From assembly GCA_021792615.1 (NCBI GenBank), contig JAJYUJ010000004.1, positions 24,232 to 88,231 of the forward strand: a stretch of DNA of 64,000 nucleotides. The letters are read 5' to 3'. The translations under genes and the position numbers were made by a program. The stretch is from a bacterium. GTDB taxonomy: Bacteria; JAMCPX01. Position 1 is the stretch's first letter, and every line of letters starts with the position of its first letter. Shown piece by piece: positions 18,708 to 58,120 of this stretch. The notes beneath the pieces were generated by a model. That model was not told the origin of the DNA and did not search any database. It saw only the letters and a list, made by a program, of their open reading frames with translations.

Positions 18708-19478
18708 CTATATCTTAACAAGCAATTTGTAATACAGCATACCGACGTATTCATGCATCGCCCTATAGGTATTATCCAACGCCTCGAGACTCGGCATATA
18801 ATCCATGAAATTATAACACGTCCTGTTTACTTTATAATCGGTCGGTGCCGGCATTATATTGGTCAGGCCGGCATGTTCGAATGCATAAACAGCCCTTTTC
18901 ATGTGGTAAGCAGAGGTAATCAGAATGATCTTGTGGCACGTCATCTTTGCGCACAAATTTTTCACATCATCGGCGTTCTCATACGTATTTCTGCTTTTTG
19001 AATCCGTGTAGATGTCCTTTTCCGGAACACCCATCTGGATCAGGAACCGTTTCAGAACAGGCGCCTCGGGACGCTGACATTGAAAGGCTTTACCGCTGCT
19101 GACGATGATTGGCAGCGGCTGAATCCGGTATAATCTGAAGGCATAGACGAGCCGGTGCAGTGCATCACCGGTCGGGGAGCCTTCTCCTTCGAGGTCCGGG
19201 GCATTGCTGTGTGTGCCTCCGCCCAGGACAACGTACACATCATGGGATGAAATGTCTTTTATGTTCAACTGAGCATATGTATTTTCAAGCGGTAGCATAA
19301 GCTTGTCGGCAAGGGGTCCGAGACATGCCGTGTAAACAGAAGCAGCAAATATCAACATGAGGATACCGATGCCGTAATTCTTTTTCTTGATGAGCATGAT
19401 TGCCCATAAAAACAGCATGGTGATGGCCAGGCCCGGAGGTAAAATCCATGCAGTGAACAGTTTCGATAGTATAAACAT
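18708..19478 (-). CDS. YdcF/ElyC/SanA-like membrane protein (DUF218)
   Basis: A 256-residue protein with two N-terminal membrane helices (about residues 8-55) and a DUF218 domain beginning at DVYVVLGGGTHSNAPD. Family landmarks are I-V-S-S-G-K, the acidic S-R-N-T-Y-E-N-A motif and ILITSAYHMKRA. E. coli relatives ElyC and SanA affect peptidoglycan and envelope integrity; a direct role here is inference. The start has AAAGGAGGCTGT. It lies downstream of the nucleotidyltransferase, separated by 171 bp with a palindromic repeat, and converges on the HEAT gene. Confidence 0.88.
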   Translation of the reverse strand: MFILSKLFTAWILPPGLAITMLFLWAIMLIKKKNYGIGILMLIFAASVYTACLGPLADKLMLPLENTYAQLNIKDISSHDVYVVLGGGTHSNAPDLEGEGSPTGDALHRLVYAFRLYRIQPLPIIVSSGKAFQCQRPEAPVLKRFLIQMGVPEKDIYTDSKSRNTYENADDVKNLCAKMTCHKIILITSAYHMKRAVYAFEHAGLTNIMPAPTDYKVNRTCYNFMDYMPSLEALDNTYRAMHEYVGMLYYKLLVKI

Positions 19479-19649: not shown

Positions 19650-20837
19650 TTATTGTTTCGTTTGTATTATGTTTTGTACTTTTATTTTAATATAAAATAA
19701 CGGTAGCACGATCGCATAAACAATAGCAATAGAGATGAGCCATAATGCCATTCCGGTTCTTTTAAATATACCCCCGGGTTTGCGTGATTTGAAAAATACA
19801 GATACCTCATAGTCAGTAAAGTTGAAGATACGGGACAGCCAGATTTTTACACCAGAAGTAAACACCGTTGCAATTCTCAGGGTTGCGTCCGATAGCCTTG
19901 AGGTAAGTTGTATCGGCAGGTATTTCATGACAACGCTGTTCGTCCAGTAAAGGTAAGCATGGGGCAACCTGGTTATCCTGTTTACGTCTGAAGGTTCGAA
20001 CGCGCTATCGATCAAGGGCAGAAAAATCCCGGCGGCATGCGTAGGACCGAGAAAAGCTGCTATTTGTTCAGGCATAAGGTTATAGGAGGACGCCATGTAG
20101 CGAAGATCGACAATATCTCTTAATCTGAATGAAAAATTGTGGTGAATAACACTATGATAAAGGCCATAGATAAATGTTACGGAAGGATCCGGAAGAAGGA
20201 ATGATTCATTGTCCCAGTTTACGGAGAAAGCCTTCTCAAATGGATCTATATCTGCAAAATGTATAAACCTGTCATCAAACAATCGCGTGTGGACCTCGAG
20301 AGACAGGGTATTGTCGAATGACTGGTAGGGCACTATATGGGATTTTATATTGAAGAGCCAGTTTTGGTTCGTGTCCTTAAATAAGGGGTGCATGTTGTTT
20401 TGCTCCATAAGTTCCCGTATTCTCGCGGTATGCTGCTGCTCGATCAATATGTCTATATCAGCCATCGGTCTCAGTCCTATCTCATGATAAACAGATATGG
20501 ATAGCCCGGCACCCTTTAACAGCAGTATTCGAATGCCGTCTTGTTCTGCCTGTCTCTTTAATAGCTTAACCCGTTTGAGTAACAAAACATTGCGTGCGGT
20601 GTTCTTCATGTAGCTTTCTTTGAGCCGGGATACTATACCGTTATACCCGGGTATATTGAGTTGCTTCAGATGGTAATATAAAAGCGGGGAAAGAAACTCT
20701 ATCGCTGCAAGCTTCAGAATCCTTTCCGGCGCCGTTTCCCCGAGTTTTTGTTTGAGAAACGTTATATGCTCCGTGGATTTAACCGGGGAACATACATCAA
20801 GCAATAGGCTTCTGAGCGGGTCGAATAACTCTGTCAT
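19650..20837 (-). CDS. Uncharacterised nucleotidyltransferase family protein (NTP_transf_5-like)
   Basis: A 395-residue protein with a DNA polymerase beta-type nucleotidyltransferase core: ILLLKGAGLSISVYHEIGLR followed by R-P-M-A-D-I-D-I-L-I, with the D-x-D metal pair. A helical N-terminal part precedes it, and a C-terminal membrane helix (WLISIAIVYAIVLPLFYIKI) anchors it. In the NTP_transf_5 family such genes sit beside PqqD-like and lasso-B2-like genes, as here. It overlaps the B2-like gene by 4 bp (ATGA). Substrate is unknown; nucleotidylation of a peptide or sugar is a guess. Confidence 0.8.
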   Translation of the reverse strand: MTELFDPLRSLLLDVCSPVKSTEHITFLKQKLGETAPERILKLAAIEFLSPLLYYHLKQLNIPGYNGIVSRLKESYMKNTARNVLLLKRVKLLKRQAEQDGIRILLLKGAGLSISVYHEIGLRPMADIDILIEQQHTARIRELMEQNNMHPLFKDTNQNWLFNIKSHIVPYQSFDNTLSLEVHTRLFDDRFIHFADIDPFEKAFSVNWDNESFLLPDPSVTFIYGLYHSVIHHNFSFRLRDIVDLRYMASSYNLMPEQIAAFLGPTHAAGIFLPLIDSAFEPSDVNRITRLPHAYLYWTNSVVMKYLPIQLTSRLSDATLRIATVFTSGVKIWLSRIFNFTDYEVSVFFKSRKPGGIFKRTGMALWLISIAIVYAIVLPLFYIKIKVQNIIQTKQ

Positions 20838-21259
20838 GGATAGTGGAATGTTATAAAATGTTCGTGAGCAACATCTTTTTTATCATCAAATACTTCACCG
20901 TCGATGGTGACCCAGCTATGCCCTGTGATCGAAGTCTTATCTATGGCATCCTTACGAATACCGGTGTAGATGGTCACGTTGTATCCGGCAGACTTCAGGA
21001 ATTTATAGAGTAAGAGCGTTCTGTTCCAGCAATGCTGGGGCTTGAACATGCCCTTTATGCTGAGCCACATATGGACGAAGTCTCTTATGGTATTCTTATC
21101 GCAGGAAGATTGTTTTTTATGCTGCGACAGGAGAGCGAATAGCTCCTTCAATCCGTGTTTTTTTTCAAGCGAAGGAATAAAAAAGGTATAAACCCCGATT
21201 TTGAAAAACAGGACAGTCTTGTTTACTACGGTGCAGGTAATAGGAGGCCTTTCTGCCAT
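20834..21259 (-). CDS. Lasso-peptide B2-like transglutaminase/protease
   Basis: A 141-residue protein of the size and pattern of lasso peptide biosynthesis B2 (transglutaminase-like core). The catalytic Cys77 sits in H-C-W-N-R-T-L-L-L, His114 in GHSWVTIDG, and Asp120 follows, giving a Cys-His-Asp triad. In lasso systems this enzyme cleaves the leader peptide delivered by the PqqD-like partner. It overlaps the propeller lipoprotein gene by 34 bp and the nucleotidyltransferase by 4 bp. No lasso cyclase (asparagine-synthetase-like) is in the window, so the pathway type is uncertain. Confidence 0.8.
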   Translation of the reverse strand: MAERPPITCTVVNKTVLFFKIGVYTFFIPSLEKKHGLKELFALLSQHKKQSSCDKNTIRDFVHMWLSIKGMFKPQHCWNRTLLLYKFLKSAGYNVTIYTGIRKDAIDKTSITGHSWVTIDGEVFDDKKDVAHEHFITFHYP

Positions 21260-22194
21260 GTCGGCTGATCATTCAGATGGACATCATTGGTTATATCGAA
21301 ACTATTTGAGCCGTTTGCGTTCATGAGAAATATCCTCTCATTGCCATACTGTGTGGATACATAAGCGATATAATTTCCACCGGGAGAGTATGCAGGGTCG
21401 AATGCATCGAACTGAGGGTTTGACAATCCTTTCGGCGGAGCACTGCAGTCCACAGGCATGGAGAATACCTGGAGGTGTCCGGTTGATGGTGATGCGGCAA
21501 GGAAGATTATTGTTTTACCGTCAGGCGACCACGAAAGAGGGGGCACGACGTTGGCTGTGTTGCATAGCCACTGCCTGTTCGAACCGTCAGGAGCGATCGT
21601 GTAAATGCTCATGGGTGCCTCACTGCTCGGTATGGGGTTTGCACCGGGGAATGGGTCATGAATGTATGCGATGGTTTTGTCGTTGGGAGAGTATTTACCG
21701 CAGCATGCGCCTGAACCGTCATCGTTGGTTATCTGCGAGCTCATGCCTGTTTTGGGATTGATAATCTCAAGCTCTCGCTGGGTAGACACAGCCAGCGTAT
21801 AAGAGATGGTGCTGCAATCGTGGCTGTAATCGGGTGCATCCGAATCGGCATTTTGGGTATCGGTAAGCTGTGTCAGGTTGCTGCCGTCAATGGACATTGT
21901 GTATATCTGGAACCTGCCTGTCCTATTCGAAGCAAACGCGATACTGTTTTTGCATGCGGTAGGGTAGGTGTCAAAGCACTGATGTAATACACAATCGGAT
22001 GACGGATCGCTGAGCCGTGTTACTGCCGCGCCGTCCTCTTTCATAGAGTATATGCTGTAATCGCCGTCTCTGGCAGATACGAAGACTATCAAGGGTTGCT
22101 GATTTAAGAATGTCTGATAGGTTTGTCTCGAGCACGCTGATGTAAGTGCTGCTACAGCGAAGGAGAGTAAAAACAGGGTTGATTTATGTTGCAT
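21226..22194 (-). CDS. TolB-like beta-propeller lipoprotein
   Basis: A 322-residue protein with a signal peptide ending in the lipobox L-T-S-A-C (Cys about 21), so probably anchored in the outer membrane. The body is a WD40/TolB-type propeller with repeats such as SPDGKTIIFLA, SNRTGRFQIYTMSIDGSNLT and SPGGNYIAYVSTQ. Six Cys residues beyond the lipobox suggest disulfides. It overlaps the PqqD-like gene by 11 bp and the B2-like gene by 34 bp, so it is an integral part of the cassette. A propeller lipoprotein inside a RiPP-like operon is unusual. Confidence 0.85.
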   Translation of the reverse strand: MQHKSTLFLLSFAVAALTSACSRQTYQTFLNQQPLIVFVSARDGDYSIYSMKEDGAAVTRLSDPSSDCVLHQCFDTYPTACKNSIAFASNRTGRFQIYTMSIDGSNLTQLTDTQNADSDAPDYSHDCSTISYTLAVSTQRELEIINPKTGMSSQITNDDGSGACCGKYSPNDKTIAYIHDPFPGANPIPSSEAPMSIYTIAPDGSNRQWLCNTANVVPPLSWSPDGKTIIFLAASPSTGHLQVFSMPVDCSAPPKGLSNPQFDAFDPAYSPGGNYIAYVSTQYGNERIFLMNANGSNSFDITNDVHLNDQPTWQKGLLLPAP

Positions 22195-22456
22195 GTTTCT
22201 CTATTATGTTCAGGGACAATAACCGTTGTATGAGGTTTTTTACACTACTGCCTGCTTTATCCCGGTCTATGGCATAAGCAGACATAATTTCTTCTACAAT
22301 CCTGTCCTGCGTAAGGTTTGATTCAATCCCCCTGAAGATCACAAGACCTGTTTCATTCAGGGAATAATAGTGCTTGTTCCGCATATCCAGCAGTATTGCC
22401 TCGTTATTGTCAAGTTCCGTAACTATTATGTCATCTGGAATTTTGTAGGTCGTCAT
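22184..22456 (-). CDS. PqqD-family peptide-binding protein
   Basis: A 90-residue PqqD/RRE-like protein. Its start MTTYKIPDDIIVTELDNNEA and the core ILLDMRNKHYYSLNETGLVI fit the winged-helix PqqD fold, which binds leader peptides and presents them to modifying enzymes. The open frame extends upstream, but the extension crosses a terminator and the end of the next gene, so the ATG at 22456 is chosen. No Shine-Dalgarno is visible: the hairpin of the upstream terminator ends 11 nt before the start. It is the first gene of the PqqD/propeller/B2/nucleotidyltransferase cassette. Confidence 0.82.
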   Translation of the reverse strand: MTTYKIPDDIIVTELDNNEAILLDMRNKHYYSLNETGLVIFRGIESNLTQDRIVEEIMSAYAIDRDKAGSSVKNLIQRLLSLNIIEKHAT

Positions 22457-22490
22457 AGAAATAAGAACGGGGCGATCTTCGATCGCCCCG
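22457..22490 (-). terminator. Intrinsic terminator between 917-aa lipoprotein and PqqD-like gene
   Basis: A 10-bp perfect stem, CGGGGCGATC/GATCGCCCCG, with a 3-nt loop lies at 22468-22490. It is read on the minus strand after the lipoprotein stop and followed by TTCTTATTTCT, which runs into the ATG at 22456. This leaves almost no leader for the PqqD-like gene. Confidence 0.8.
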
Positions 22491-22500
22491 TGAAAAATCT

Positions 22501-25254
22501 TTACAATCCTAAATTGCTGAGATTGACCTTGCCTGTTATCACATTGATGAGCAGGTTCACCACGCCTACGTACTGGTTCAACTGTGCATTGTTCATATTT
22601 GCAGTTGAATAGCTTATGGTATCGCATGGCGCAGAAGCATTATAGGGTATACCGACATAGTTCTGGTACTTGCTGCACCAGTTGAATTGTCCCACCGTGA
22701 GCAGTCCGCCAAAGGTCGGATCCGGGAAGAACATGTACGCATCATTGGGCAATGCAATGCCAATTGTGTCCAGTGTATTTGTTGGAAGTATCTGTTGGAG
22801 TAAAGGTCCCAGAGTGGGATCCGTAACCAACATTGCAGCCAGTTGCTTAAATGTGGTTCCCGTTATATTAATTGTAATTAGTTTTGGCGGATCAACAAAT
22901 GTGCTGCCCGGCCAGTAATGGTATCTCGGGAAAAACGAAGTTGAGCCAGGAGAAAGTACTCCTCCGAGTGGCATTAATACACCCATACTCAACGCGATTC
23001 CCAGCGGAGCCGTATTAATATATGCTCCAGCGTAGAGCAGCGAGAACAGAGAACCGTTCCATAGGTCTGGTTGGCCGTTCTTTTCTCCGCAAACGGCATT
23101 CCCAATTGTAGGAGCATTTGGTATGGGCCATGGAATTCCAATAGATAGCGGACCTAAAGATAGAGAGGTAAGGGTAGTACACGATATGTCGTCGCCATAC
23201 GGATCAGGGTTAGTCGAGTTATAGCCAAGCTCAAGGTTATCCGGTACCCTGTCTGTGCCGGTATCACTCCATGCTGTCATGGTTATGCCTGAGAAGCTGA
23301 GGCCTGTAAATGGGAATGACTGTTCTTCATCCGTTTGCTCCACAATATCGCCTACCTGATGAAATTGCCCGTCGCCATAGATATTAACAAAACAGGGCTG
23401 ATTCGATTGCGTGCTATTACATACGGGCGTGCCTGCGTGCCATACATTGTCACCGTTGTCTGCATACCATTCGCCGGAATAAGACGGTGATGTCGGATTT
23501 CCGGTGCAAGGCCCGGTTATCGTATACGTAAGCGGTGTGCCGGTTGTAGGATCTGTTGTTATTTTAACTGCATCACAGGTGCCGTTCACGGTGCCATTTA
23601 TTACATTACCGGGTCCGCTCGCAGAACCGTCCGTGCCGGGAGAAAAGCTTGCCGTTGCTGTCCAGTAGCCTGCTCCATTGTTCTCGCTTCCTGGAACATG
23701 GACAAATCCATCTGCAAATGCCTCCGGTGCTGTATACGTGCTTGTGCCGACGAGGGGTGATGTAGACTGATAAGACATCGGTGCGAGTGTCTTCAAGTCG
23801 GCAGGTGGGTTACTCAAGAACGCGCCAAGGTCGATGGATGGCAATACCGGCAGTGATATGTAGGCGTCGCCTGTAGAATCAAGCATCTGAGACAAAAGTT
23901 GTGGAAGCATACCGAGTAATGGACCGAGCGTACTGCTGGTCGAACCTAAACCGGCAAGCAGAGGCTCCAACACAGGGAGCAATCTCGGCACAAGTACCGG
24001 TATTGCAGGTATAATATCCAGCGGATGCTGGCCATTGTTATCAATGATACTTGCATACAGCGCATTGGAAGCGGACTGCAAATCCGTCAGATAGATGAGT
24101 CTCGATATGGCTGGCAGTGTAAGCGTCATGCTTGCACTGAGGGGAATGGAAAGTCCGCCGGTAACAAACAACTCATTACTGATCAATTGTGCTGCTTGTT
24201 TTTGGCCCATGCCGCTTATTAAGGTAATGATGCCCTTAATTGTTTGATTGGAACCTATGCTCGGGCTTATACCCGGCAACAGTTTTAATATAACAACAAC
24301 AACCTGGCCCAATACTTCCGAACCCCATGTGTCTCCAGTCGTTGTTGATGTAGGGGGATCGTATTTTCCGTTCTTGTCGTTATCGACATAATTTATGAAT
24401 CCGTGATTTGAATTATCTCCGGTTCTTGCCATGATTGCACCCATGCTGTTGGAGAAGTTTTTGGCTGCATCGGAAAGAAGATACTGTGCATCGGAGAGCA
24501 TCTGGGCACCGTTCGAAGTCAGTGTACCGAAGTTGGGATCCGTCAAAGGATTGGGCATGGTGCATCCCGTTTTTGTTAATCCAATCAAGAGGTTTGCAAC
24601 TTCGTTTAGTACGCCGTTGTACGCGAATAACACCTTGGCACCGCCCTGGATTGTTTCAAACAAGCTGAGCATGGCATCAACCTCGCCGAGGTCGTACGCA
24701 CCCGACATATCGAGGGTAAAGCTCTGACCCGCGAGAGATGTGATCAACACTCCCATATTGGGGAGAATAACCAGTGTTGCCGTATTAATAGTAAAATCAA
24801 AACCCGTAAAAGTGCTCACAGCCTGCAGATGGGCAACTATCGGTGAGATCATATTATCGATAACCGGCCCCAGAAGTGTCTGATATGCCGAAAGGTCTAT
24901 GGGCTGACAGCCTGATGAAGAACTGCCGGAACTCCCTCCCAGCAGATTGGTAGAACTCAATAAACTTGATATTGTATCAAGTCCATTCCATGTACCGATC
25001 ATGGCAAGCCCGAAGTTTGCATGCGAATAAATAAAATTGTAATTTGGGTCGCCTTTCCCAAGGTTATTCAGAGCATCGGCGTACAGAGATTGAGCCTGTC
25101 CTCTTGAGCCGCTGCTATTCAGTCCACCGTTTTCGATGATCTTGTCTGCATTGAGTGTGTTTTGATAGGGATCCACCTTGCTTGTTGAACACTGCGTTAA
25201 TAAAAGACTGAACAGAGCGAATACCGGAAACAACCATAAACCCTTCTTTCCCAT
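22501..25254 (-). CDS. Large lipoprotein with thrombospondin-3-like Ca-binding stretch, 917 aa
   Basis: No family was recognised. The signal peptide ends in the lipobox L-L-T-Q-C (Cys about 22). The mature protein is hydrophobic and repetitive in Leu/Pro/Gly, with helices like LLPVLEPLLAGLGS. It contains Asp-rich segments resembling calcium loops: D-N-D-K-N-G-K-Y-D around residue 290, and DTGTDRVPDNLELGYN near residue 650, a thrombospondin type-3 pattern. A Cys-rich region lies at about 560-640. A good ribosome site GGAGGTG and a candidate promoter precede it. It ends at a terminator directly before the PqqD cassette. Confidence 0.85.
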   Translation of the reverse strand: MGKKGLWLFPVFALFSLLLTQCSTSKVDPYQNTLNADKIIENGGLNSSGSRGQAQSLYADALNNLGKGDPNYNFIYSHANFGLAMIGTWNGLDTISSLLSSTNLLGGSSGSSSSGCQPIDLSAYQTLLGPVIDNMISPIVAHLQAVSTFTGFDFTINTATLVILPNMGVLITSLAGQSFTLDMSGAYDLGEVDAMLSLFETIQGGAKVLFAYNGVLNEVANLLIGLTKTGCTMPNPLTDPNFGTLTSNGAQMLSDAQYLLSDAAKNFSNSMGAIMARTGDNSNHGFINYVDNDKNGKYDPPTSTTTGDTWGSEVLGQVVVVILKLLPGISPSIGSNQTIKGIITLISGMGQKQAAQLISNELFVTGGLSIPLSASMTLTLPAISRLIYLTDLQSASNALYASIIDNNGQHPLDIIPAIPVLVPRLLPVLEPLLAGLGSTSSTLGPLLGMLPQLLSQMLDSTGDAYISLPVLPSIDLGAFLSNPPADLKTLAPMSYQSTSPLVGTSTYTAPEAFADGFVHVPGSENNGAGYWTATASFSPGTDGSASGPGNVINGTVNGTCDAVKITTDPTTGTPLTYTITGPCTGNPTSPSYSGEWYADNGDNVWHAGTPVCNSTQSNQPCFVNIYGDGQFHQVGDIVEQTDEEQSFPFTGLSFSGITMTAWSDTGTDRVPDNLELGYNSTNPDPYGDDISCTTLTSLSLGPLSIGIPWPIPNAPTIGNAVCGEKNGQPDLWNGSLFSLLYAGAYINTAPLGIALSMGVLMPLGGVLSPGSTSFFPRYHYWPGSTFVDPPKLITINITGTTFKQLAAMLVTDPTLGPLLQQILPTNTLDTIGIALPNDAYMFFPDPTFGGLLTVGQFNWCSKYQNYVGIPYNASAPCDTISYSTANMNNAQLNQYVGVVNLLINVITGKVNLSNLGL

Positions 25255-25373: not shown

Positions 25374-26246
25374 TCAAGATCTGGATGCGATAAGGTTGCC
25401 CATAATCTTATAGGCAAGTTTTGCAGCGAGAAAATCGGTTGTGATCGAATGCGGCTCGGGTGCAAGCTCCACGATGTCGCAGCCCACGAGATGCTTCTTT
25501 TTTATGATCATCTTTATCAGATCGATGACATCGTACCACGAAAGTCCGCCCGGCTCTGGTGTACCGACAGCCGGCGCAACAGACGGATCGAAGCCGTCGA
25601 GGTCTATGGTTAAATACACGGTGTTCCCGAGTGCGTCCACAACATGCTCCTTCCATAGATTATCGCTGCGTATCATATGCATATAAAAGGTGCGAATGCC
25701 CCTCTTTTTTATGAAGTCGTACTCTTCTTTGCTTTGGCTCCGAATACCGGCCTGAACAATGTCCACCATATCTTTTATCCGCGCCATCACGGATCCATGA
25801 CTGTAGATTGTGCCTTCGTACGCATCACGGAGATCGGAATGCGCATCTATCTGGAGTACGCTCATCCTCGGGGCCTGTTCAGCGAATGCCCTGAGTATCG
25901 GGTAGGTTATGGAATGTTCGCCTCCGAATGAAACCAAAAACTTGTTTTGCAGGGGCAGGGCCTTTACCGTTTCATAAATTTTATCTATGGATCGCTCTGA
26001 CGGTCCTTTATCAAACGCTATGGGCTCCAGGGTGTGTATGCCTTCAAGGTAAGGTTCGAGAGCGAGCTCTTCATCGAACAATTCGAGGTACTGCGATGCC
26101 TTGATAATAGCATCCGGGCCTTTTTTCGTGCCCGTACCGTACGACGTAGTCTGCTCGTACGGGACCGGTAAAATCAAAAATTTCGCTTGTTCGATCGGTA
26201 CGGTGTACCGTAAAAAGCTGTGTCTGTCGAAGATCGGTGCCGCCAT
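25374..26246 (-). CDS. speB: Agmatinase
   Basis: Hydrolyses agmatine to putrescine and urea with a binuclear Mn2+ site. The 290-residue ureohydrolase has all family ligand motifs: F-G-G-E-H-S-I-T, Q-I-D-A-H-S-D-L-R, YLTIDLDGFDPSVAPAVGTP and D-I-V-E-L-A-P. It lies 12 nt after the pyruvoyl-dependent arginine decarboxylase gene, so arginine to putrescine is encoded as a two-gene unit. Confidence 0.93.
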   Translation of the reverse strand: MAAPIFDRHSFLRYTVPIEQAKFLILPVPYEQTTSYGTGTKKGPDAIIKASQYLELFDEELALEPYLEGIHTLEPIAFDKGPSERSIDKIYETVKALPLQNKFLVSFGGEHSITYPILRAFAEQAPRMSVLQIDAHSDLRDAYEGTIYSHGSVMARIKDMVDIVQAGIRSQSKEEYDFIKKRGIRTFYMHMIRSDNLWKEHVVDALGNTVYLTIDLDGFDPSVAPAVGTPEPGGLSWYDVIDLIKMIIKKKHLVGCDIVELAPEPHSITTDFLAAKLAYKIMGNLIASRS

Positions 26247-26258
26247 CCTAATTCCTTC

Positions 26259-26804
26259 TCACGGCAGGAGTACTGCCGCTGCTAAAACCGTTGTCCAGTA
26301 GCCTTCTTTATCAACGGTTGCGGACTGGGTTATGTTCCGTGTTGTAACGACGTGTCCTTTGATAGTCCAGATCTCTTTCTGTTCGTCCCAGCTTTTGGTT
26401 GGATCGAATTCCACACCGAGTGTTGTCGCAAGCATGAATGCGGCAAGATCTTCGGCATAATCCCCTGCGATCTTCTCGGTCTGCCCGAAGCTGTGATGTT
26501 CCGAAAGATAACCGTGTATTGTTTCATCCTTGGGATTTGCAAGACCTATGGATGCCGCAGTCAGCCGGTGAGGCTCGTTTGACGTGTTCTCCGATAACAC
26601 ACAGAATACAATCTGCCCTTGCTGGAGGTATTGCAAGCCCTGATCAATGGTGATGATCTTACACCTCGGAGGTATAATACTGCTTACCCGTACCAGGTTA
26701 TATTCCGCTATCTTCGCATCCCTGAGTGCCATCTCAAAACTTGTTAGCTTCTGGGTATGTCTTCCTATACCCTTTGTTAAAAAAAGTTTTGAAGGTACAA
26801 ACAT
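26259..26804 (-). CDS. pdaD: Pyruvoyl-dependent arginine decarboxylase
   Basis: Decarboxylates arginine to agmatine using a self-made pyruvoyl group. The 181-residue proenzyme has the cleavage motif NLVRVSSIIPP at about residues 36-46, where chain cleavage at Ser-Ser makes the pyruvoyl residue. The C-terminal family motifs G-Y-L-S-E-H-H and A-E-D-L-A-A-F-M-L-A are also present. This archaeal-type enzyme is found in many bacteria with agmatinase next door, as here. AAAGGAG precedes the start. Confidence 0.93.
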   Translation of the reverse strand: MFVPSKLFLTKGIGRHTQKLTSFEMALRDAKIAEYNLVRVSSIIPPRCKIITIDQGLQYLQQGQIVFCVLSENTSNEPHRLTAASIGLANPKDETIHGYLSEHHSFGQTEKIAGDYAEDLAAFMLATTLGVEFDPTKSWDEQKEIWTIKGHVVTTRNITQSATVDKEGYWTTVLAAAVLLP

Positions 26805-36931: not shown

Positions 36932-37552
36932 ATGATAAAAATAAATTTATTAAAACAGCAGTCGAAAAAAGCCGTATCGCAAAAAGAGATCGACATCTAC
37001 AAGCAGTTACTTGTGGGCGGGATATTCGTTGCCATTTTTCTTGCGGCGATAATTTTTATGGAATTAAACATACGCAATAAAATGTCTTCGGCGAAGGAAA
37101 ATATTGCACAGTTGAATCAAAAACTGGTGCAGTTAAATAAAACGGTTAACGAGATAAACAATTTCAAGAAAATGAAGGATCAAATAAAGGCAAAACTCGA
37201 TATCATTACCACTCTTGAAAAAAACAGAACTGCCGAGATCCATTTGATGGACGAACTGTCAAAATCGATCCCTTATGACCCGAGCAGTGTACTATCAAAA
37301 AAATTGTGGCTGGTGACCCTCAAGCAGCACGGCGATTTGATCGGTATGGACGGCGTTGCCCTTGACAACAGCACCATAGCGCAATTTATGGATAATCTTT
37401 CAAAAGATCCCTATTTTAGTGATATTAATCTTTCTAAAACGGAACAGGTAAAGTCGAACGACCTTCTCCTGTATAAATTTTCCCTCACTTGTAAATTTAA
37501 TCCGATGCCGGGTAACAGTATTACGGGAACAACCCAAAAAACTTTGCAATAA
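36932..37552 (+). CDS. pilN: Type IV pilus assembly protein PilN
   Basis: A 206-residue inner-membrane bitopic protein. The N-terminal MIKINLLKQQSKK is the conserved PilM-binding INLL-type motif. One transmembrane helix follows (about 30-47), then a coiled coil and a periplasmic ferredoxin-like domain that pairs with PilO. Spacing of 1 nt to pilM and 15 nt to pilO marks the operon. Confidence 0.92.
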   Translation: MIKINLLKQQSKKAVSQKEIDIYKQLLVGGIFVAIFLAAIIFMELNIRNKMSSAKENIAQLNQKLVQLNKTVNEINNFKKMKDQIKAKLDIITTLEKNRTAEIHLMDELSKSIPYDPSSVLSKKLWLVTLKQHGDLIGMDGVALDNSTIAQFMDNLSKDPYFSDINLSKTEQVKSNDLLLYKFSLTCKFNPMPGNSITGTTQKTLQ

Positions 37553-37567
37553 CAGAAGGAGAGGATT

Positions 37568-38179
37568 ATGGATATAAACATAAATACATTGGCAAAGCTG
37601 AACCTCCAACAAAAGCTTTTAGTGCTTGGCATTATTTTTATACTGATTTTGCTGTTGGATTTATACGTATGGCCCGGCTACCTGGCCGAGAGGAACACCT
37701 ATACCGGTTTGCAGGGGCAGGAACGGTCTGTTCAGGCAAAAGTCCTTGAAACCCAGGCAATTGCGGATCATAAAGAAGAGTTTCAGAATGAGCTCAATAA
37801 ACTCTCGGAACAATTGAACGAAGCTTTGACGAAACTTCCCAACAATCCGGAGGTTGATAAGTATCTGGTTACGCTCAATACCCTGTCAAAAACAACCGAA
37901 CTGAATGTTATTCAGATAGAACCCAAGGCAGAAGTGGTAAAGGGATTTTATGCTGAAATACCGGTTCAGATACATTTAACAGGGACCTATGATGACATAG
38001 CGATGTTTCTTTATAAACTTGCAGAACTGCAGAGGATCATAAATGTTTCTGATTTGGATCTCAAGGTTAAGCAGCAGACCTCCACGGGTAAGACCATGCT
38101 TGATGCGGCTTTTTTAACGAAGATATTCCGGTTTGTAGAATCTGCACCTGCTGCAGCTGCAGCAGGTAAAAAAAGATGA
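37568..38179 (+). CDS. pilO: Type IV pilus assembly protein PilO
   Basis: A 203-residue partner of PilN with one N-terminal membrane helix (ILGIIFILILLLDLYVW area), a coiled coil around residues 45-80 and a C-terminal ferredoxin-like domain with VQIHLTGTYDDIAMFLYKLA. It links the inner-membrane platform to the lipoprotein PilP. The C-terminus is Ala-rich and basic. Confidence 0.92.
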   Translation: MDININTLAKLNLQQKLLVLGIIFILILLLDLYVWPGYLAERNTYTGLQGQERSVQAKVLETQAIADHKEEFQNELNKLSEQLNEALTKLPNNPEVDKYLVTLNTLSKTTELNVIQIEPKAEVVKGFYAEIPVQIHLTGTYDDIAMFLYKLAELQRIINVSDLDLKVKQQTSTGKTMLDAAFLTKIFRFVESAPAAAAAGKKR

Positions 38180-38192
38180 AAAGGAAACAAGT

Positions 38193-38729
38193 ATGAAAAG
38201 GATAGAATCTTTACTGTTGACAAGTATGTTGATAGTGGTAGCTGGTGTGAGCGGATGTAAGAAAGCACCGGTGCCAAAGGTTGTTCCCAAAAACAACATG
38301 ACTGTGGTGAATCCTGTGAAACAGATGGCACCTCCGCCTGTTCAAGCTGCTCAGACCCCGAGTAGTACGACGGCCGGGACTTCTTCCTATTATTATAATC
38401 CGGCAGGTAAACCCGATCCGTTTGAGCCGTTTGATATAAGCAAAGTAAAACCCACGACAGCCCTCACTCCGTTGCAGCAGTTTTCGCTGGATCAGCTTAC
38501 CGTGAGGGGAATAATATGGGGACTTTCGAATGCAAAGGCCATAATAGAAGATCCTACCGGTAAAACGTATATCGTCGGTATTGGCACAAAAATTGGTAAG
38601 AATAACGGAGTAATAATCCGCATATTGAACGAGAAAATCGTTGTTTTGGAACAGTACACCGATGTTTTTACCGGTAAGGTCAAGACAAACGAAGTTACTA
38701 TGAAATTAAAGAAAACGGAAAAAATTTAA
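38193..38729 (+). CDS. pilP: Type IV pilus lipoprotein PilP
   Basis: A 178-residue lipoprotein (lipobox V-S-G-C, Cys about 22) that connects PilNO with the secretin PilQ. A Pro/Gln-rich linker is followed by the PilP beta domain: P-D-P-F-E-P-F, L-T-P-L-Q-Q-F-S-L-D-Q-L, V-R-G-I-I-W and the glycine-rich IGTKIGKNNGVIIRI. The last part matches the HR domain that contacts PilQ. Confidence 0.92.
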   Translation: MKRIESLLLTSMLIVVAGVSGCKKAPVPKVVPKNNMTVVNPVKQMAPPPVQAAQTPSSTTAGTSSYYYNPAGKPDPFEPFDISKVKPTTALTPLQQFSLDQLTVRGIIWGLSNAKAIIEDPTGKTYIVGIGTKIGKNNGVIIRILNEKIVVLEQYTDVFTGKVKTNEVTMKLKKTEKI

Positions 38730-38740
38730 GGGGGAACAAA

Positions 38741-41254
38741 ATGAGAATAAAAAATAAAACACAAATCATATTATCAAGCTTGTTGATAATATTTTTTATA
38801 GGAGCGTGTGCAGGCTCACAACCTGTTCCTGGCGGAGGTGCTAATATCATCGGTAATATCGACATATCAGATCAGGATACAGCTACCATATTGACGATAG
38901 AAGGAAGTGCCCCCCCTATTTATACGGTATATAAGATGACAAATCCTTTAAGGGTTGTGGTAGATCTTACCAATGCGGATGTATCTGCCTTATCAAAGAG
39001 TATGGTCATTAATAACGGCGTTATAAACACCATCAGTGTAAAAACGTTAAAAGAAGCCGGAAGTTCTATGGGCAGGATAGACATAGGATTGGACAAACTT
39101 GTTGATTATAATGCCTCGGTTCAGGGGAATAACGTCGTTGTTAACATTTCCAAAACAGCATCGTCCGCTCAAGCGCAGAGTTCTTTGGGTGAAATTCCAC
39201 CGGTAGGGACCGGAGCAGAATTGGCACCCGGGATACCTCCCGTTTCTGGTGTTCAACCTCTGCAACCGAATATGCCCCCTGCACTCTCAGAACAACAGCC
39301 TTCTCCGGAAATGGCCCCCGTTGCAGGTTTGACTGCTACGCCTTCCGGTGAAGAACAGCCTGTTATAACAGAATCGGCACTACAGCCGACCCAGACTGCA
39401 GTTTCGGGCGAAGAGCAACCATTGCCTCCTTTGCCGGGGCAAAGTACTCCGACGCCTGCAGTTCCTGTTGTTGAAGAACAACAACCGGTGCAACCTGCAG
39501 GTACGCAGCAGCCTGTTGCATCGAAGATAATAGATATAAAATATAGCACCGTTGACAATAAGACCGTGGTTGATTTTATCGGGAATGGAGATATAGGAAA
39601 TTATAATGCCTTCAGGCTCAATAATCCTCCAAGGCTTGTTATCGATGTTTTGAATGTCGGTAATCTTTTTCCAACGAACGAAATGCCTGTTGGAACAAAC
39701 GATGTTGAACGGGTAAGGATCGGGCAATACCCTGACAAAGTGCGATTTGTCCTGGATACAACAAAGTCCCAATTCCCTCCTTATACCGTGAATAAAAAAG
39801 GTAACAAGTTAATTGCAACCATCGGATCCGGTGTACAGGAACAGGGCGTTGTCGTTCTTCCTAAACCCGAGGGAGAAATTCCCGGCGCTCCATCCTCTCA
39901 GCAGATAAGTACTCCGCCTACTTCCCCTGTCGTCTTTTCTCCGAACAGCCTTGGCATGAAACGCATCTACACAGGACGGCGTATCTCGCTGGATTTCAAA
40001 GATGCGGATATCCAGGACATATTGAGGCTTATTGCGGAGGTAAGCAATAAGAACATCATAGCGGGTGATGATGTTCACGGTAAGATTACCATGAAGATGA
40101 CCAATGTTCCCTGGGACCAGGCATTGGATATAATACTCCAGACGAATAATCTCGGCATGGTACAGGTCGGCAACATCATAAGGATTGCTCCGCTTGCAAC
40201 ACTGAGAAAAGAACAAGAATCCCAGCTTGAGGCAAAACAGAAACAGGAGAAGCTCGAGGAACTCGTAACAAGGATTATTCCGGTTAACTACGCAAAGGCA
40301 TCCGATCTTGCCGCCCAGCTCAAATCACTCTTGACCTCAAGAGGAACCGTCAGCGTGGATGCAAGGACAAATTCGATCATCATAAAGGACGTGCCAAAAG
40401 TTATAACAGAATCGGAAAAGCTTGTGAAGGCCCTTGATTTGCAAACACCGGAGGTTCTGATAGAAGCCAGGATCGTCGAGGCGGATACCAACTTTACCCG
40501 TCAGCTTGGCGTACAATGGGGGAATGCTTATCATGCAAGCCCTGCTTACGGCAATGCAACAGGCCTGTCGTTCCCGAATACTATAGGCATCGGCGGAGGC
40601 ACCATACAGCAGAACTCAACATCCCAGCCATTACCGTTAGCAGGCGGTGTTGGTGCAAGCGGCAATAATTACATGGTCAACCTGCCCGCTGCAGTTGGTT
40701 CTGGTTCGGGCGGTGCTATTGGATTCACCTTTGGAAATCTGACAAACAGCTTCCTCCTGGATCTTCAGTTGAGTGCAATGGAACAAACGGGTGAAGGTAA
40801 GATCATCTCCAGCCCTAAGGTTACAACCCTCGACAATACGCAGGCTAAGATACAGCAGGGTTTATCGATACCGTACCAGACTGTTTCACAGATGGGAACA
40901 CAGACACAATTTATAGATGCGGTCCTGAGTCTTGAAGTTACTCCGCATATAACAGCAAACGGCAGTATCATCATGAAAATCAAAGCGGATAAGAACGCAC
41001 CTGATACCTCCATACTCAGTGCGAGCGGTGTGCCGAGTATTTCCAAAAAAGAGGCAGACACAGAGGTGCTTGTCAAGAACGGTGAAACAACAGTTATCGG
41101 TGGAATATACCAGTTTAACAAATCAACGACTATATCCGGTGTACCCTGGTTCTATAAGATACCTTTGATCGGCTGGCTGTTTAAGAATACGACAAAAACA
41201 AACCAGACAACCGAGCTTCTTATATTCATTACGCCGAGGATAGTTAATCAATAG
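38741..41254 (+). CDS. pilQ: Type IV pilus secretin PilQ
   Basis: An 837-residue outer-membrane secretin through which pili pass. Order: signal with lipobox F-I-G-A-C, an AMIN domain (about 40-130), a Pro/Gln-rich linker (about 150-265), a second AMIN domain (about 265-370), an STN-like domain starting ISLDFKDADIQDILRLIAEV, a secretin N domain (VNYAKASDLAAQLKSLL) and the secretin core ending TTKTNQTTELLIFITPRIV. The lipobox on PilQ itself is less common than in PilP. The linker repeats E-E-Q-P units. Confidence 0.95.
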   Translation: MRIKNKTQIILSSLLIIFFIGACAGSQPVPGGGANIIGNIDISDQDTATILTIEGSAPPIYTVYKMTNPLRVVVDLTNADVSALSKSMVINNGVINTISVKTLKEAGSSMGRIDIGLDKLVDYNASVQGNNVVVNISKTASSAQAQSSLGEIPPVGTGAELAPGIPPVSGVQPLQPNMPPALSEQQPSPEMAPVAGLTATPSGEEQPVITESALQPTQTAVSGEEQPLPPLPGQSTPTPAVPVVEEQQPVQPAGTQQPVASKIIDIKYSTVDNKTVVDFIGNGDIGNYNAFRLNNPPRLVIDVLNVGNLFPTNEMPVGTNDVERVRIGQYPDKVRFVLDTTKSQFPPYTVNKKGNKLIATIGSGVQEQGVVVLPKPEGEIPGAPSSQQISTPPTSPVVFSPNSLGMKRIYTGRRISLDFKDADIQDILRLIAEVSNKNIIAGDDVHGKITMKMTNVPWDQALDIILQTNNLGMVQVGNIIRIAPLATLRKEQESQLEAKQKQEKLEELVTRIIPVNYAKASDLAAQLKSLLTSRGTVSVDARTNSIIIKDVPKVITESEKLVKALDLQTPEVLIEARIVEADTNFTRQLGVQWGNAYHASPAYGNATGLSFPNTIGIGGGTIQQNSTSQPLPLAGGVGASGNNYMVNLPAAVGSGSGGAIGFTFGNLTNSFLLDLQLSAMEQTGEGKIISSPKVTTLDNTQAKIQQGLSIPYQTVSQMGTQTQFIDAVLSLEVTPHITANGSIIMKIKADKNAPDTSILSASGVPSISKKEADTEVLVKNGETTVIGGIYQFNKSTTISGVPWFYKIPLIGWLFKNTTKTNQTTELLIFITPRIVNQ

Positions 41255-51876: not shown

Positions 51877-54747
51877 ATGAGGTATGGAATATTGAAAATA
51901 TGCAGTGCGATCGTTATTGTCCTTGCACTGATCAGCGTTGGAAGCTGCGGGAAAAAAACATCTCCTCCTGCTATTGCGCAGGTCAACCAGACAAGCATCA
52001 TTAAAACCCTGCCATGGGAGGGTGCGAAGCTTATACCTGTTAATCCAACCGTAATTATAGATTTCTCGAATCCTTTAAGCATGAATAACAGCGGCATGAA
52101 GACAAGCCTTGTATCATTGCCGTCGGGACGCAGCATACCGGGGAATGCCGGTATCCAGGCGAACTATTTGTATTTTACACCATCAACTACCCTTGAGCCA
52201 TTGAGTTACTATAGATTCACGCTGTCCGGCACCCTGTACGATGAAAACAGCAATAGTGTATTTTTACCTGCAAACGGACTGACCTTCTCCTTTGAAACAC
52301 AGGCAAGCAATACGCCTTTAGCGAGCGTGGGGCCTGCATTGGTGAATATATTTCCTCCTTTGCCGGGTGAGGTGTTTACGAATACGGTATTCAGACTGAC
52401 CTTTTCCCAGCCATTGTATCAGGGGTCAATTTCGTATGGCAACGACATTATGATAACAGATACGACGTCCCATTCAGTTGTCCCTGTTACCCTTGTGCCC
52501 ATTCAAAACACTATCGTGCTGCAGCCTATTGCAGGACTTTTAGCAAATCACGTGTATAAGCTTGCAATGACCAATCAGCTTTTGGGCATCAATTTCACCC
52601 CTGTTTCTCTGAATTATAACGGTATGGGGAGCGGAAATGTCTTCTCTTATACCTTTACACCGGTAAGCGCAGGTAAAGAGACGTTACTCACCGTGTACCT
52701 TGATCCTGCCCTTAACCTTGATAGCTCCGGCAACATTTTGAAAGATAACAATTGGGATGCCCTGCAGTCTTCTGACGTGCCGCTGAATGTCAATATCGTT
52801 CATTCCCAGCTTATTGGCAATACGACTGCATATCTTACCGGGTATCTGGACACGTATATGGGCGATGCAGCAGCATCGCCTTCGATGATCCCTGTTATCA
52901 TACCCGGGGGACAGAGGCTTTATGGCTCCTCCATGTCCGTAAGTCTCGGAGGGGTCATACCTACTCCATTATTATCGAAAAAGCTCAGTATAACCCTGCT
53001 CGATAATGTATGTATGTATATGACCGGAAATCCCTATCAGGATATCAATCCTCAGGCACCTCCGGTCATGTACGGTGTTGAAGACATGAATCTGACTGCC
53101 CAGGACCCTGTTACCAATGCCGTGCTGAATCAAAATCTTATGGGTGTGCAGCTTACCGGAACGGTTACGGTCGATAAGACAGACGGCAGCCTGATTATAG
53201 ATTACATGGGGATGACAACGCTGAACATTATGGGTATTGAGAATGCTCCCGTCCTGTTATTCCTCAGATTCCGGTCGGTTCCTGCAGGGTGGGTTGCACC
53301 GCAAAGAGACAACACCTTTGTTGCAACGGGTACCATACCGTACAGCGGCGATGACCGGATAGGTACGGACAGCGGCTTTATCGTGAACTTCTCAGGTCCG
53401 GTCGATCCATCCAATTTCCAAAGCAGGTTCAGTTTAAGCCCTACCGGTTCTACCATAGGATATCAGACCATCTATAACGGCTCGAGTGTGATTGTTCAGC
53501 CTTATAATCTTTTAAATCCATATTATCCCATTCCGCTTGTACCTCAAACCCCGTACGATCTGACAGTGTATAGCGGGCTTGCATCACTGATGGGCACGAG
53601 TCTGAATCAGGATGCTGTGATGAGCTTTACGACGGATGCGGCAGAATACGGTGCAACGACAGCAGGTACGTTTGTAACGCCGGTGATCGGTACTGTTTTC
53701 CCTGAGGACGGGGGCATGCTCCCGTTGTTTGCCCACCCCTCTATAAGCCTGGATAAATTCATAGATCCGTCGACAGTCGCGTATAATCAGGATGTGTTTG
53801 TTACGGATACTACAGAAGGCATACCAGTACCTGGAGGAGTCGAGGTAATCGGAAGGAAGATGCTGTTTATACCATCTCAACCCCTTATCAATGGGGATCA
53901 GTATACCTTTGCGGTCTCTCCTGCCATTACCGACATAGACGGAAATACGCTGACGCAGGATGCTGCGATCCATTTTACCGCAGCAGCAACACCGTGGTTC
54001 CCGATACTCTCCCAGGAGCTTTCACCTGTTGCAGACAGAAATCAGGATGCATATTTAGACGGGTCAGAAGCTCCAACACCCCAGAATGCCATTCTCATGG
54101 GGCAGACCACGACGAATGTAACCTTAAACGTTCTTGGAATCGGAATACCGACGACTGCAACGGTGTATCCGCAAAACCCCTCGTATTTGAGCGGCCAGCT
54201 CAATGCCATGATAACCGGTATAGGGCAGGATGCGAACGGAAATCCGCAGCTGCAGTTTGTCGTTGATGGCGGGGCAAAACAGTTCGGCACGAATGTCACG
54301 ATTCTGGCGATTGTCTTTGGTGTACCGCTTTTGGGGACAGTTTCCCAGACAAATGTCACGGGCAGGCTTACCCTTTCATTACAGCCGCTGACACCTACAA
54401 CAGCTCAGGGGTGGCCCTGTGGTATGCAGGCAGCCTGCGGGTACATTGCGTATGATGCAGCAGCACAACAGCTTACGGCCGTTACGTATATGGCGGCAAA
54501 TGCCAATGCCTCTGATGCTCTGGTGCAGCAGATGATGTCACCGTATCAGCCCACGAAGATTGTATTGCAAGGGCCCGTTACCTTCTTACCCGACGGAAGA
54601 CTTGCCCTGACCATGTCAGGTACAACGATCATGACAACGGATCTCATCAGTACCAATGCATTAGCTCCCGGTTACATCGGTACGGCACATCTACCGACAA
54701 CGATCTACACCCGTATCGTATCGACCTTACCATCGATCTGGAATTAA
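51877..54747 (+). CDS. Giant Big_5-repeat lipoprotein, 956 aa
   Basis: A secreted lipoprotein (lipobox I-S-V-G-S-C, Cys about 24) built mainly of four Ig-like Big_5-type beta domains at about residues 40-150, 155-260, 500-600 and 620-720, alternating with unique segments. Landmarks are L-P-W-E-G-A-K-L-I-P, LTAQDPVTNAVLNQNLMG, VPAGWVAPQRDNTFVATG and a C-terminal block FLPDGRLALTMSG ending in P-S-I-W-N. It starts 9 nt after the FadL-like gene, in the same operon, and has a close paralogue downstream. Function is unknown; a surface scaffold is likely. Confidence 0.85.
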   Translation: MRYGILKICSAIVIVLALISVGSCGKKTSPPAIAQVNQTSIIKTLPWEGAKLIPVNPTVIIDFSNPLSMNNSGMKTSLVSLPSGRSIPGNAGIQANYLYFTPSTTLEPLSYYRFTLSGTLYDENSNSVFLPANGLTFSFETQASNTPLASVGPALVNIFPPLPGEVFTNTVFRLTFSQPLYQGSISYGNDIMITDTTSHSVVPVTLVPIQNTIVLQPIAGLLANHVYKLAMTNQLLGINFTPVSLNYNGMGSGNVFSYTFTPVSAGKETLLTVYLDPALNLDSSGNILKDNNWDALQSSDVPLNVNIVHSQLIGNTTAYLTGYLDTYMGDAAASPSMIPVIIPGGQRLYGSSMSVSLGGVIPTPLLSKKLSITLLDNVCMYMTGNPYQDINPQAPPVMYGVEDMNLTAQDPVTNAVLNQNLMGVQLTGTVTVDKTDGSLIIDYMGMTTLNIMGIENAPVLLFLRFRSVPAGWVAPQRDNTFVATGTIPYSGDDRIGTDSGFIVNFSGPVDPSNFQSRFSLSPTGSTIGYQTIYNGSSVIVQPYNLLNPYYPIPLVPQTPYDLTVYSGLASLMGTSLNQDAVMSFTTDAAEYGATTAGTFVTPVIGTVFPEDGGMLPLFAHPSISLDKFIDPSTVAYNQDVFVTDTTEGIPVPGGVEVIGRKMLFIPSQPLINGDQYTFAVSPAITDIDGNTLTQDAAIHFTAAATPWFPILSQELSPVADRNQDAYLDGSEAPTPQNAILMGQTTTNVTLNVLGIGIPTTATVYPQNPSYLSGQLNAMITGIGQDANGNPQLQFVVDGGAKQFGTNVTILAIVFGVPLLGTVSQTNVTGRLTLSLQPLTPTTAQGWPCGMQAACGYIAYDAAAQQLTAVTYMAANANASDALVQQMMSPYQPTKIVLQGPVTFLPDGRLALTMSGTTIMTTDLISTNALAPGYIGTAHLPTTIYTRIVSTLPSIWN

Positions 54748-54775
54748 CTTTAATTTAATAAAAAAAGGATGGCAT

Positions 54776-57700: not shown

Positions 57701-58120
57701 GCGGTTTTGTTTGGAACAAACGTAAACATTGTCGCAGCAGGCTTAATTTCACTGTCAACCGGCATGCTTACGCTTTCATTATCTCCTTTGTCGGCATCGC
57801 AGGCGCAAGGATGGCCCTGCGGAACACGTCCTGCGTGTGGTTACATTGCGTATAATACATCGGCACAGCAGCTTACGGCAGTTACCTATATGGCATCAAC
57901 GGCGACTGCTTCCAATGGGGTTACAGAAGCTATGATGTCACCGTATCAGCCTGTATTTGTTGCGCTTTCTGGCCCTGTAACATTCCTGCCCGATGGAAGG
58001 CTTGCACTTACCATGTCCGGTAAAACAACAATGACGGTCGGTCTGCTCGGCATTACGGCTAATATACCGACAACCATCTACACCCGTATTGTATCGGCGA
58101 TGCCCTCGATGTGGAACTGA
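54776..58120 (+). CDS. Giant Big_5-repeat lipoprotein with two FnIII modules, 1114 aa
   Basis: Paralogue of the preceding gene, sharing blocks such as LTAQDPVTNAVLNQNLMG, QRDNTFVATGTIPYSGD and FLPDGRLALTMSG to the end P-S-M-W-N. The lipobox is A-V-N-C (Cys about 29). It differs by two fibronectin type III modules at about residues 50-140 and 145-235, with core pattern A-T-S-Y-x-I-Y-W-S-T and N-S-Y-G-E-S; about two thirds of positions are identical between the two. The FnIII DNA looks more AT-rich than the rest. Same operon as the acyl-CoA ligase and porin. Confidence 0.85.
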   Translation: MKNKKERMHKSKVRFCLLSLMLFVTAVNCGKKVSFSELQTPPPVANPALSAPDNVDAIQGNKQVTISWANVVGATSYTIYWSTLSGVNITNGTKITNVTNPYTQTGLQNGTTYYYIVTAENSYGESSASNQVSATPLLYGIPPAAPTGVSAAPGNGQVILSWNPIQNATSYNIYWSTSSNVTPANGTKISSVTNPYTHSGLSNGTTYFYVVTALNSYGESTGSSEVSATPSMTQTGVVTTLPWEGAKLIPLNSTMIVKFSNQLNPSTTGAIVTLSSVSSGSTVTGQTSIQSSYLFFTPSTTLSQLSVYRFTLSGSLFNTNGLQVILPAQGLSFSFETEGQDIPLPASAPTLLNVFPSLRGEVFTTAVFRLTFSQPLSQASLVYGNDIKITDTTANTVVSVKLIPINNTVVLQPVSGLIAGHVYSLILTNGILGLDLQPVSLYYAGSGNGSTLSLPFIPVSAGRQALLNVELSPSVSLDNDGNILSMNNVNASGIPMNANIVNSKLIGTSIAYLTGYLENSMGDISMYPSLVPIIIPGGQRLYGSTMNVELGGVIPTGLASKKLSITLLDNATMFIGANPYQPINPQAPATIYGIQDLNLTAQDPVTNAVLNQNLMGVQLTGTVTADTTTGSLVINLVGITELNIMGIEKAPLILFLRLQSVPAGWVPPQRDNTFVATGTIPYSGDGRIGTDSSFIVDFSGPVDPDNYTNMLTVNPAGSLGYQTTYNGSSIIVTPYTASNPLNPIPLVPKTPYSLTVSSGLASVMGTTTNQNAVFNFTTDALESGGGSTPVIATVFPENNGYLPLFAHPYISLNQFINPSSVVYNSNVFVRDVSAGNSLVAGGVKVTGKKILFIPSQQIVNGHQYTFTVNSSVADIDGNTLGQGTTIHFTAEATPWFPILSQVLSPVADRNQNTSIDGSEITTPTNEIYMGQTTLMGLVQLVPQSPSYLSGSINALVTGITTVNGQPRMQFVVDDGAVLFGTNVNIVAAGLISLSTGMLTLSLSPLSASQAQGWPCGTRPACGYIAYNTSAQQLTAVTYMASTATASNGVTEAMMSPYQPVFVALSGPVTFLPDGRLALTMSGKTTMTVGLLGITANIPTTIYTRIVSAMPSMWN

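Follow-up and report, generated by a model that had tools for sequence, protein, structure and literature searches.

A four-gene cassette with a lasso-type leader-recognition and leader-cutting pair, a propeller lipoprotein and a nucleotidyltransferase: a probable peptide-tagging pathway without a lasso cyclase

What can a bacterium make with the leader-recognition and leader-cutting proteins of lasso peptide biosynthesis when no lasso cyclase accompanies them? This question is raised by a cassette of four genes in a 64,000-nucleotide stretch of DNA (hereafter the window), from a 2.54-Mb draft genome that is 99.55% complete (hereafter G000). The lineage is little known and comes from metagenomes only; nine genomes of its phylum are present in our collection. 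Along the minus strand, the cassette encodes a PqqD-like protein, a TolB-like beta-propeller lipoprotein, a B2-type cysteine protease and an NTP_transf_5 nucleotidyltransferase, in that order (Table 1). Successive genes overlap by 11, 34 and 4 bp, and all four proteins pass the Pfam cut-offs; coordinates and domain matches agree with a preliminary description of the locus made from the sequence alone. Its activity seems to parallel the opening half of a lasso pathway: a small peptide is probably recognised, cleaved and given a chemical tag in lasso style, but the enzyme that ties the lasso is absent. We favour, with some reservation, a RiPP-like (ribosomally synthesized and post-translationally modified peptide) pathway, in which the lasso leader-recognition and leader-cutting pair would act in the absence of a lasso cyclase on a precursor encoded in trans.

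The closest solved relatives of the PqqD-like protein by sequence are TbiB1 (5v1u, E 9.7e-14) and a lasso PqqD chaperone (9x90, E 2.9e-12). It scores over the PF05402 cut-off, and two lasso_PqqD exception models match it below their cut-offs (53.1 vs 70 and 44.9 vs 80 bits). These sequence matches support its assignment as a lasso-type RiPP recognition element (RRE; B1/PqqD-like). The B2 protein qualifies as a lasso leader peptidase with the NCBIfam model lasso_biosyn_B2 (NF033537; 35.1 bits for a cut-off of 33), and its Cys77 and His114 are invariant in the alignments. In fold searches, its AlphaFold2 model (pLDDT 75) gave papain-like or transglutaminase-like matches (best Foldseek E 0.1; best VIA-align Z 5.6, rmsd 4.2, 104 aligned residues) that are weak, and we therefore base no claim on them. 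The nucleotidyltransferase belongs to its family by a wide score (120.4 bits for a PF14907 cut-off of 31.2), with G109, D127 and D129 as conserved residues. Profiles of B2, of NTP_transf_5 and of LP917, the large lipoprotein encoded just upstream of the cassette, retrieved nothing significant from the sequences of solved structures.

The cassette is conserved within the lineage. The block PvlArgDC, arginase, LP917, PqqD, propeller, B2, NTP_transf_5 and DUF218 is present in full in G001, and its LP917-to-DUF218 portion in G002 and G004. The four-gene order is thus complete in these three genomes, and G003, G005 and G008 show the same order within the limits set by their contig ends; DUF218 is the next gene after the cassette in G001, G002, G004 and G005. 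A recurrence of the order in other genomes had been proposed as a check, and it is found in both genus and family (G001-G005, G008), supporting the view that the four genes form a linked system. Regarded as a four-gene unit, the cassette stands as to its genes and their order, but the conserved block is longer than described and a terminator parts LP917 from PqqD. All four genes are under strong purifying selection, with dN/dS values relative to G004 of 0.15 (PqqD), 0.06 (propeller), 0.14 (B2) and 0.11 (NTP_transf_5). In G000, PqqD and NTP_transf_5 are single-copy, and B2 is the sole PF13471 match over the cut-off. The cassette has decayed in G007, where LP917 and PqqD are kept, the propeller gene is truncated by a stop, B2 has its catalytic Cys replaced with Arg and a broken frame, and the NTP gene is in pieces. 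G006 has LP917 and no cassette gene.

We looked for a lasso cyclase at the scale of the genome. Two proteins of G000, on contigs C54 and C25, score over the Asn_synthase cut-off, and both start with MCGI/VCGI, which contains the glutaminase Cys2 of canonical amidotransferases. With the lasso-cyclase model, whose cut-off is 525 bits, they reach 287 and 208 bits, compared with 569 for the genuine cyclase of the G361 lasso cluster. No lasso cyclase was found among the Asn_synthase proteins of G000, and the cassette is therefore not a lasso pathway by membership. The absence of a cyclase noted in the preliminary description thus extends from the locus to the genome, whose Asn_synthase proteins are only canonical amidotransferases. 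Near the cassettes of the family, the only Asn-synthase-like gene is that of G005, which was ruled out as a lasso cyclase because it encodes a canonical MCGI amidotransferase (AsnB).

Nor did motif or profile searches of the window and the sister loci reveal a precursor ORF (open reading frame) in or beside the cassette, in keeping with what had first been noticed. We scored 20,588 short ORFs, drawn from 1.43 Mb (57%) of G000, with a profile of the 16-residue leader segment, and a single outlier emerged (score 27.0, next 18.9), a 63-aa ORF at G000:C22:15138-15329 on the minus strand (MSEKKLNKRTAKPQKAESKPAGINQTSKKTFIEPELKEYPSLTEVTLLTVPGVSGATFFKTFK). Divided at the predicted cleavage site, this candidate precursor reads MSEKKLNKRTAKPQKAESKPAGINQTSKKTFIEPELKEYPSLTEVTL followed by LTVPGVSGATFFKTFK, and it carries F(-17), P(-14), L(-12) and T(-2). 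It also ranked first with an earlier profile built from fewer seeds and run on less sequence (25.0, next 13.6). Of the short ORFs, 1,561 do not overlap larger ORFs, and only nine of these combine a Shine-Dalgarno sequence with a terminator; the candidate scores 27.0 and the others at most 1.9, and those listed include apparent HU, ribosomal protein, ferredoxin and ATP-synthase genes. GGAGGAG precedes the candidate's ATG, a sigma-70-like promoter (TTGACA-16-TATACT, 11/12) lies upstream, and the stop codon is followed by a terminator with a 10-bp stem. Should this ORF be the precursor, its core LTVPGVSGATFFKTFK lacks the Asp or Glu found at ring positions 7-9 of lasso cores, which fits the missing cyclase. 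The scenario in which a precursor and a cyclase lie just outside the cassette is not what we observe: no cyclase was found in the genome, and the ORF most likely to be the precursor belongs to a different contig.

The candidate lies beside the gene for a 907-aa lipoprotein, LP907 (L215 12283-15006, G000:C22), whose N-terminal ~190 residues are also present in four further large lipoproteins of G000 (L241, L225, L238 and L242). No precursor was found upstream of these four paralogues in the examined stretches, two of them at stretch ends. By blastp, LP907 is homologous neither to LP917 nor to the 640-aa lipoprotein of G047 described below.

Similar cassettes exist elsewhere. Of 386 genomes searched with a B2 profile, 33 encode B2-like proteins. 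The cassettes of G049, G326, G194, G386, G197, G047 and G192 resemble that of the window in combining PqqD and B2 without an Asn-synthase (the short contigs of G197 and G192 showed no PqqD), but they have an HprK-like kinase and a radical SAM protein in place of NTP_transf_5. Their order is PqqD-HprK-radical SAM-B2 in G049, G326, G194 and G386; other orders occur elsewhere. G361 and G339, from the same search, do carry an Asn-synthase. Short ORFs with the lasso leader motif are found near the cassettes of G047, G197, G232 (four ORFs), G113, G249, G376 and G244. Those of G047 (...YSKPTVKKNEPLVNITFATAGVGAGAVPGSGGAAESAIG, between the 640-aa lipoprotein and HprK) and G197 (...FIEPKLTKQESLVKSTLFPGAAAPGAAAVGTS, between B2 and HprK) are linked precursors with the same type of leader, and a 51-aa peptide is conserved in G113, G249 and G376. 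The linked ORFs have Y/F, P, L/V and T at a spacing of -17, -14, -12 and -2. In lasso leaders such as that of the Bradymonas sediminis cluster bsf, positions -17 to -12 and -2 are reported to matter, with Ile at -2 in bsf (PMC10368454). No Asn-synthase occurs in the examined stretches around the precursor-bearing cassettes. In G049, G326, G194 and G386, as in the window, a leader-motif scan found no linked precursor; we suggest that a cassette with no precursor beside it may still have one elsewhere.

Some of these loci have features of their own. The cyclase-less cassette of G232 (L146 6980-13549) comprises four precursor-like ORFs and genes for PqqD, B2, radical SAM, HprK-like and NTP_transf_5-like proteins. 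The 51-aa precursor shared between genera (L189 6510-6665 and L190 6026-6181), with the core TATVALEGT..CTLTRCT.EPPAIKG, is found in PqqD-B2-radical SAM-HprK cassettes. In Omnitrophota UBA10183 (L102 8901-9740), tandem PqqD genes are present, with a short ORF ending in VGTSCSSCASCTSCA beside radical SAM, HprK-like and B2 genes.

The propeller lipoprotein, whose place in the cassette had been noted as odd, recurs too. Three genomes of our collection (G047, G192 and G324) represent another tiny phylum. The G047 gene located 12 bp before B2 encodes a 674-aa lipoprotein containing PD40 repeats, and the window's propeller profile recovers this protein (E 7e-8). In G192, the gene for a 1,641-aa lipoprotein that combines Ig-like repeats with a PD40 match at its C-terminus shares 4 bp with B2; the G047 and G192 lipoproteins are 27% identical over 527 aa. 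In G324, a radical SAM gene adjoins B2 with no propeller between them. Because a propeller lipoprotein gene immediately precedes B2 in two members of this small phylum, which is unrelated to that of the window, an accidental linkage is unlikely. The rarity of the propeller profile points the same way: it matches two of 1,286 ORFs in G000, the genome in which this count was made rather than G047 or G192. The linked system would have been in doubt had the propeller never been found beside PqqD or B2 in other genomes, and its position next to B2 in G047 and G192 removes that doubt.

These data suggest the following pathway. The PqqD protein would bind a short precursor through the leader segment F(-17)xxP(-14)xL(-12), and B2, a putative Cys-His protease, would cut after Thr(-2)-Leu(-1); both steps are proposed because of the established roles of B1 and B2. 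After or before cutting, NTP_transf_5 may modify the core with a nucleotidyl group or one derived from it. We propose this step because of the family assignment and of a parallel with PsmN, a possible nucleotidyltransferase that is required for attaching a hexose to phosphorylated pseudomycoidin (PMC9266682). The propeller lipoprotein would handle the product outside the cytoplasm as a receptor, a carrier or a scaffold, as its linkage suggests. A bolder version, possible but in our opinion doubtful, is that the cassette represents a RiPP class using the lasso leader code, whose linear, nucleotidyl-tagged peptide would arise from an unlinked precursor and be served by a dedicated outer-membrane propeller receptor or carrier, as a near-core trait of the candidate phylum.

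Several observations weigh against the proposed peptide pathway. The candidate precursor is unlinked to the cassette, and the scan that found it covered 57% of a single genome, G000. One of the shuffled sets (20 repeats with the earlier profile, 11.8-21.6) reached 21.6. As a plain regular expression, the leader motif does not exceed chance (three free matches vs 0.9 expected), and we rejected it as sole evidence for a leader, only the full profile taken with the gene signals being distinctive. The third catalytic residue of B2 is not clearly conserved in the distant alignment rows. NTP_transf_5 has no solved sequence relative, so its predicted chemistry rests on the family name and the motif, and the propeller is tied to the peptide by gene linkage alone.

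Comparisons with known systems define the cassette more closely. The lasso clusters psm (pseudomycoidin) and bsf likewise have a discrete RRE (B1), a B2 leader peptidase and a nucleotidyltransferase-like gene, and their leaders show Y(-17)xxP(-14)xL(-12) with a conserved residue at -2 (usually Thr; Ile in bsf). In contrast, the window cassette has no cyclase, kinase, linked exporter or linked precursor, the candidate core lacks a ring acceptor, and a propeller lipoprotein is inserted. The window PqqD resembles ScmD, the PqqD protein of the SynChlorMet cassette (24.7 bits), but it falls short of the ScmD cut-off of 100 and no radical SAM protein equivalent to ScmE or ScmF is encoded, which places the cassette outside that system. 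The lasso isopeptidase AtxE2 (NF033523) also brings a beta-propeller into a lasso-type context; however, the window's 322-aa protein scores 32 bits against a cut-off of 400 and has only PD40-type matches, with no alpha/beta-hydrolase domain, and is not a member. TolB shares the PD40 propeller and provides its closest solved structures by sequence (E 2.7e-11). The window protein is nevertheless not a TolB of the Tol-Pal system, as it scores 99.8 bits with TIGR02800 (cut-off 343) and is 322 aa long with a lipoprotein signal.

Could the cassette act without a peptide product, or on another target? A PqqD-based modification of the cell surface, for instance of a glycan or lipid carrier, would be akin to the HPr-rel-A loci (TIGR04352/TIGR04353), whose components include a PqqD-like protein (PqqD_rel_X, TIGR04353) and an HprK-related kinase A. 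The HPr-rel-A system has a nucleotidyltransferase partner. The proximity of NTP_transf_5 to PqqD without a cyclase and the downstream DUF218 gene are consistent with such a function, and TIGR04353 matches the window PqqD weakly. The match (17.8 bits) nonetheless misses the curated cut-off of 35, no HprK-like ORF was found in the cassette or in the scanned 57% of G000, B2 is present, and related cassettes have precursor peptides; the cassette is thus not a member of that system, and we regard this explanation as unlikely. Slightly less probable still is a large envelope lipoprotein as the substrate for trimming or tagging, be it LP917 or the propeller. In its favour, LP917 holds a constant place on the 5' side of the cassette in the lineage, and in G047 and G192 the kinase gene also has on its 5' side a gene for a large lipoprotein or a MopE protein. 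Against this, the [YF]xxPxL...T motif is absent from the window's LP917 and propeller, and its occurrence inside LP917, propeller, NTP or B2 proteins was rejected as not consistent. LP917 is kept in all nine genomes of the lineage, including G006, which has no cassette, and G007, where it has decayed. Moreover, large lipoproteins are common in G000 (about 29 of 1,286 ORFs of at least 100 aa), so adjacency is weak evidence. The LP917 AlphaFold2 model (pLDDT 30) was of no use here. The hairpin between LP917 and PqqD, examined in five species, keeps 11 of 11 pairs (100% paired) with compensatory changes at four of them, and this conserved terminator sets LP917 apart as a separate transcription unit. 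Its T-run abuts the PqqD ATG, with no Shine-Dalgarno sequence visible before PqqD, and a role in read-through control of the cassette is possible. Of the initial proposal of leader trimming on an envelope target, the trimming is supported, but the envelope substrate is not.

A true lasso pathway whose cyclase lies elsewhere or was missed is very improbable. RRE, B2 and nucleotidyltransferase-like genes do occur together in the lasso clusters bsf and psm (PMC10368454, PMC9266682), but the Asn_synthase proteins of this nearly complete genome include no cyclase, the cassette stretches of the family have no Asn-synthase other than the AsnB near the G005 locus, and the candidate core has no Asp or Glu in the ring positions. 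Least probable of all is a degenerate remnant of a lasso cluster with no present function: the decayed copy in G007 and the loss in G006 are compatible with it, but it is contradicted in the window's own genus by dN/dS values of 0.06-0.15 and by frames that are intact in the genus and in G005 and G008. Under the favoured reading, that of a peptide pathway with a trans-encoded precursor, the locus and its relatives offer a clearly delimited gene set and a substrate motif open to testing, together with a specific 63-aa candidate substrate from one genome. Through the recurrent propeller lipoprotein, a pathway of the RiPP type is connected with the envelope in two candidate phyla that are unrelated to each other.

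Table 1. Cassette genes and adjacent features (window coordinates)
Feature	Position	Strand	Evidence
PqqD-like discrete RRE (B1-type), 90 aa	22184..22456	minus	PF05402 E 1.3e-12
TolB-like beta-propeller lipoprotein, 322 aa	21226..22194	minus	PD40 E 4.6e-13; lipobox LTSAC (from sequence)
Lasso B2-type transglutaminase-like cysteine protease, 141 aa	20834..21259	minus	PF13471 E 2.4e-9; NF033537 over cut-off
NTP_transf_5 nucleotidyltransferase, 395 aa	19650..20837	minus	PF14907 E 1.2e-34; KGA and DxD motifs; C-terminal hydrophobic segment
LP917, large lipoprotein, syntenic neighbour	22501..25254	minus	without Pfam or NCBIfam match
DUF218 (SanA/YdcF-like) envelope protein, downstream neighbour	18708..19478	minus	PF02698 E 8.3e-32
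Intrinsic-terminator-like hairpin between LP917 and PqqD	22467..22491	minus	11-bp stem, conserved

Other genes of the window deserve mention. The pyruvoyl-dependent arginine decarboxylase gene beside an arginase-family gene (25374-26804, minus) forms a pair kept in the lineage and is a probable polyamine operon. PilN and AMIN-domain secretin genes upstream of chorismate synthase (36932-41254, plus) likely belong to a type IV pilus operon. Finally, a tandem pair of genes (51877-58120, plus) encodes large Big_5 proteins of 956 and 1,114 aa, of which the first carries a lipobox.

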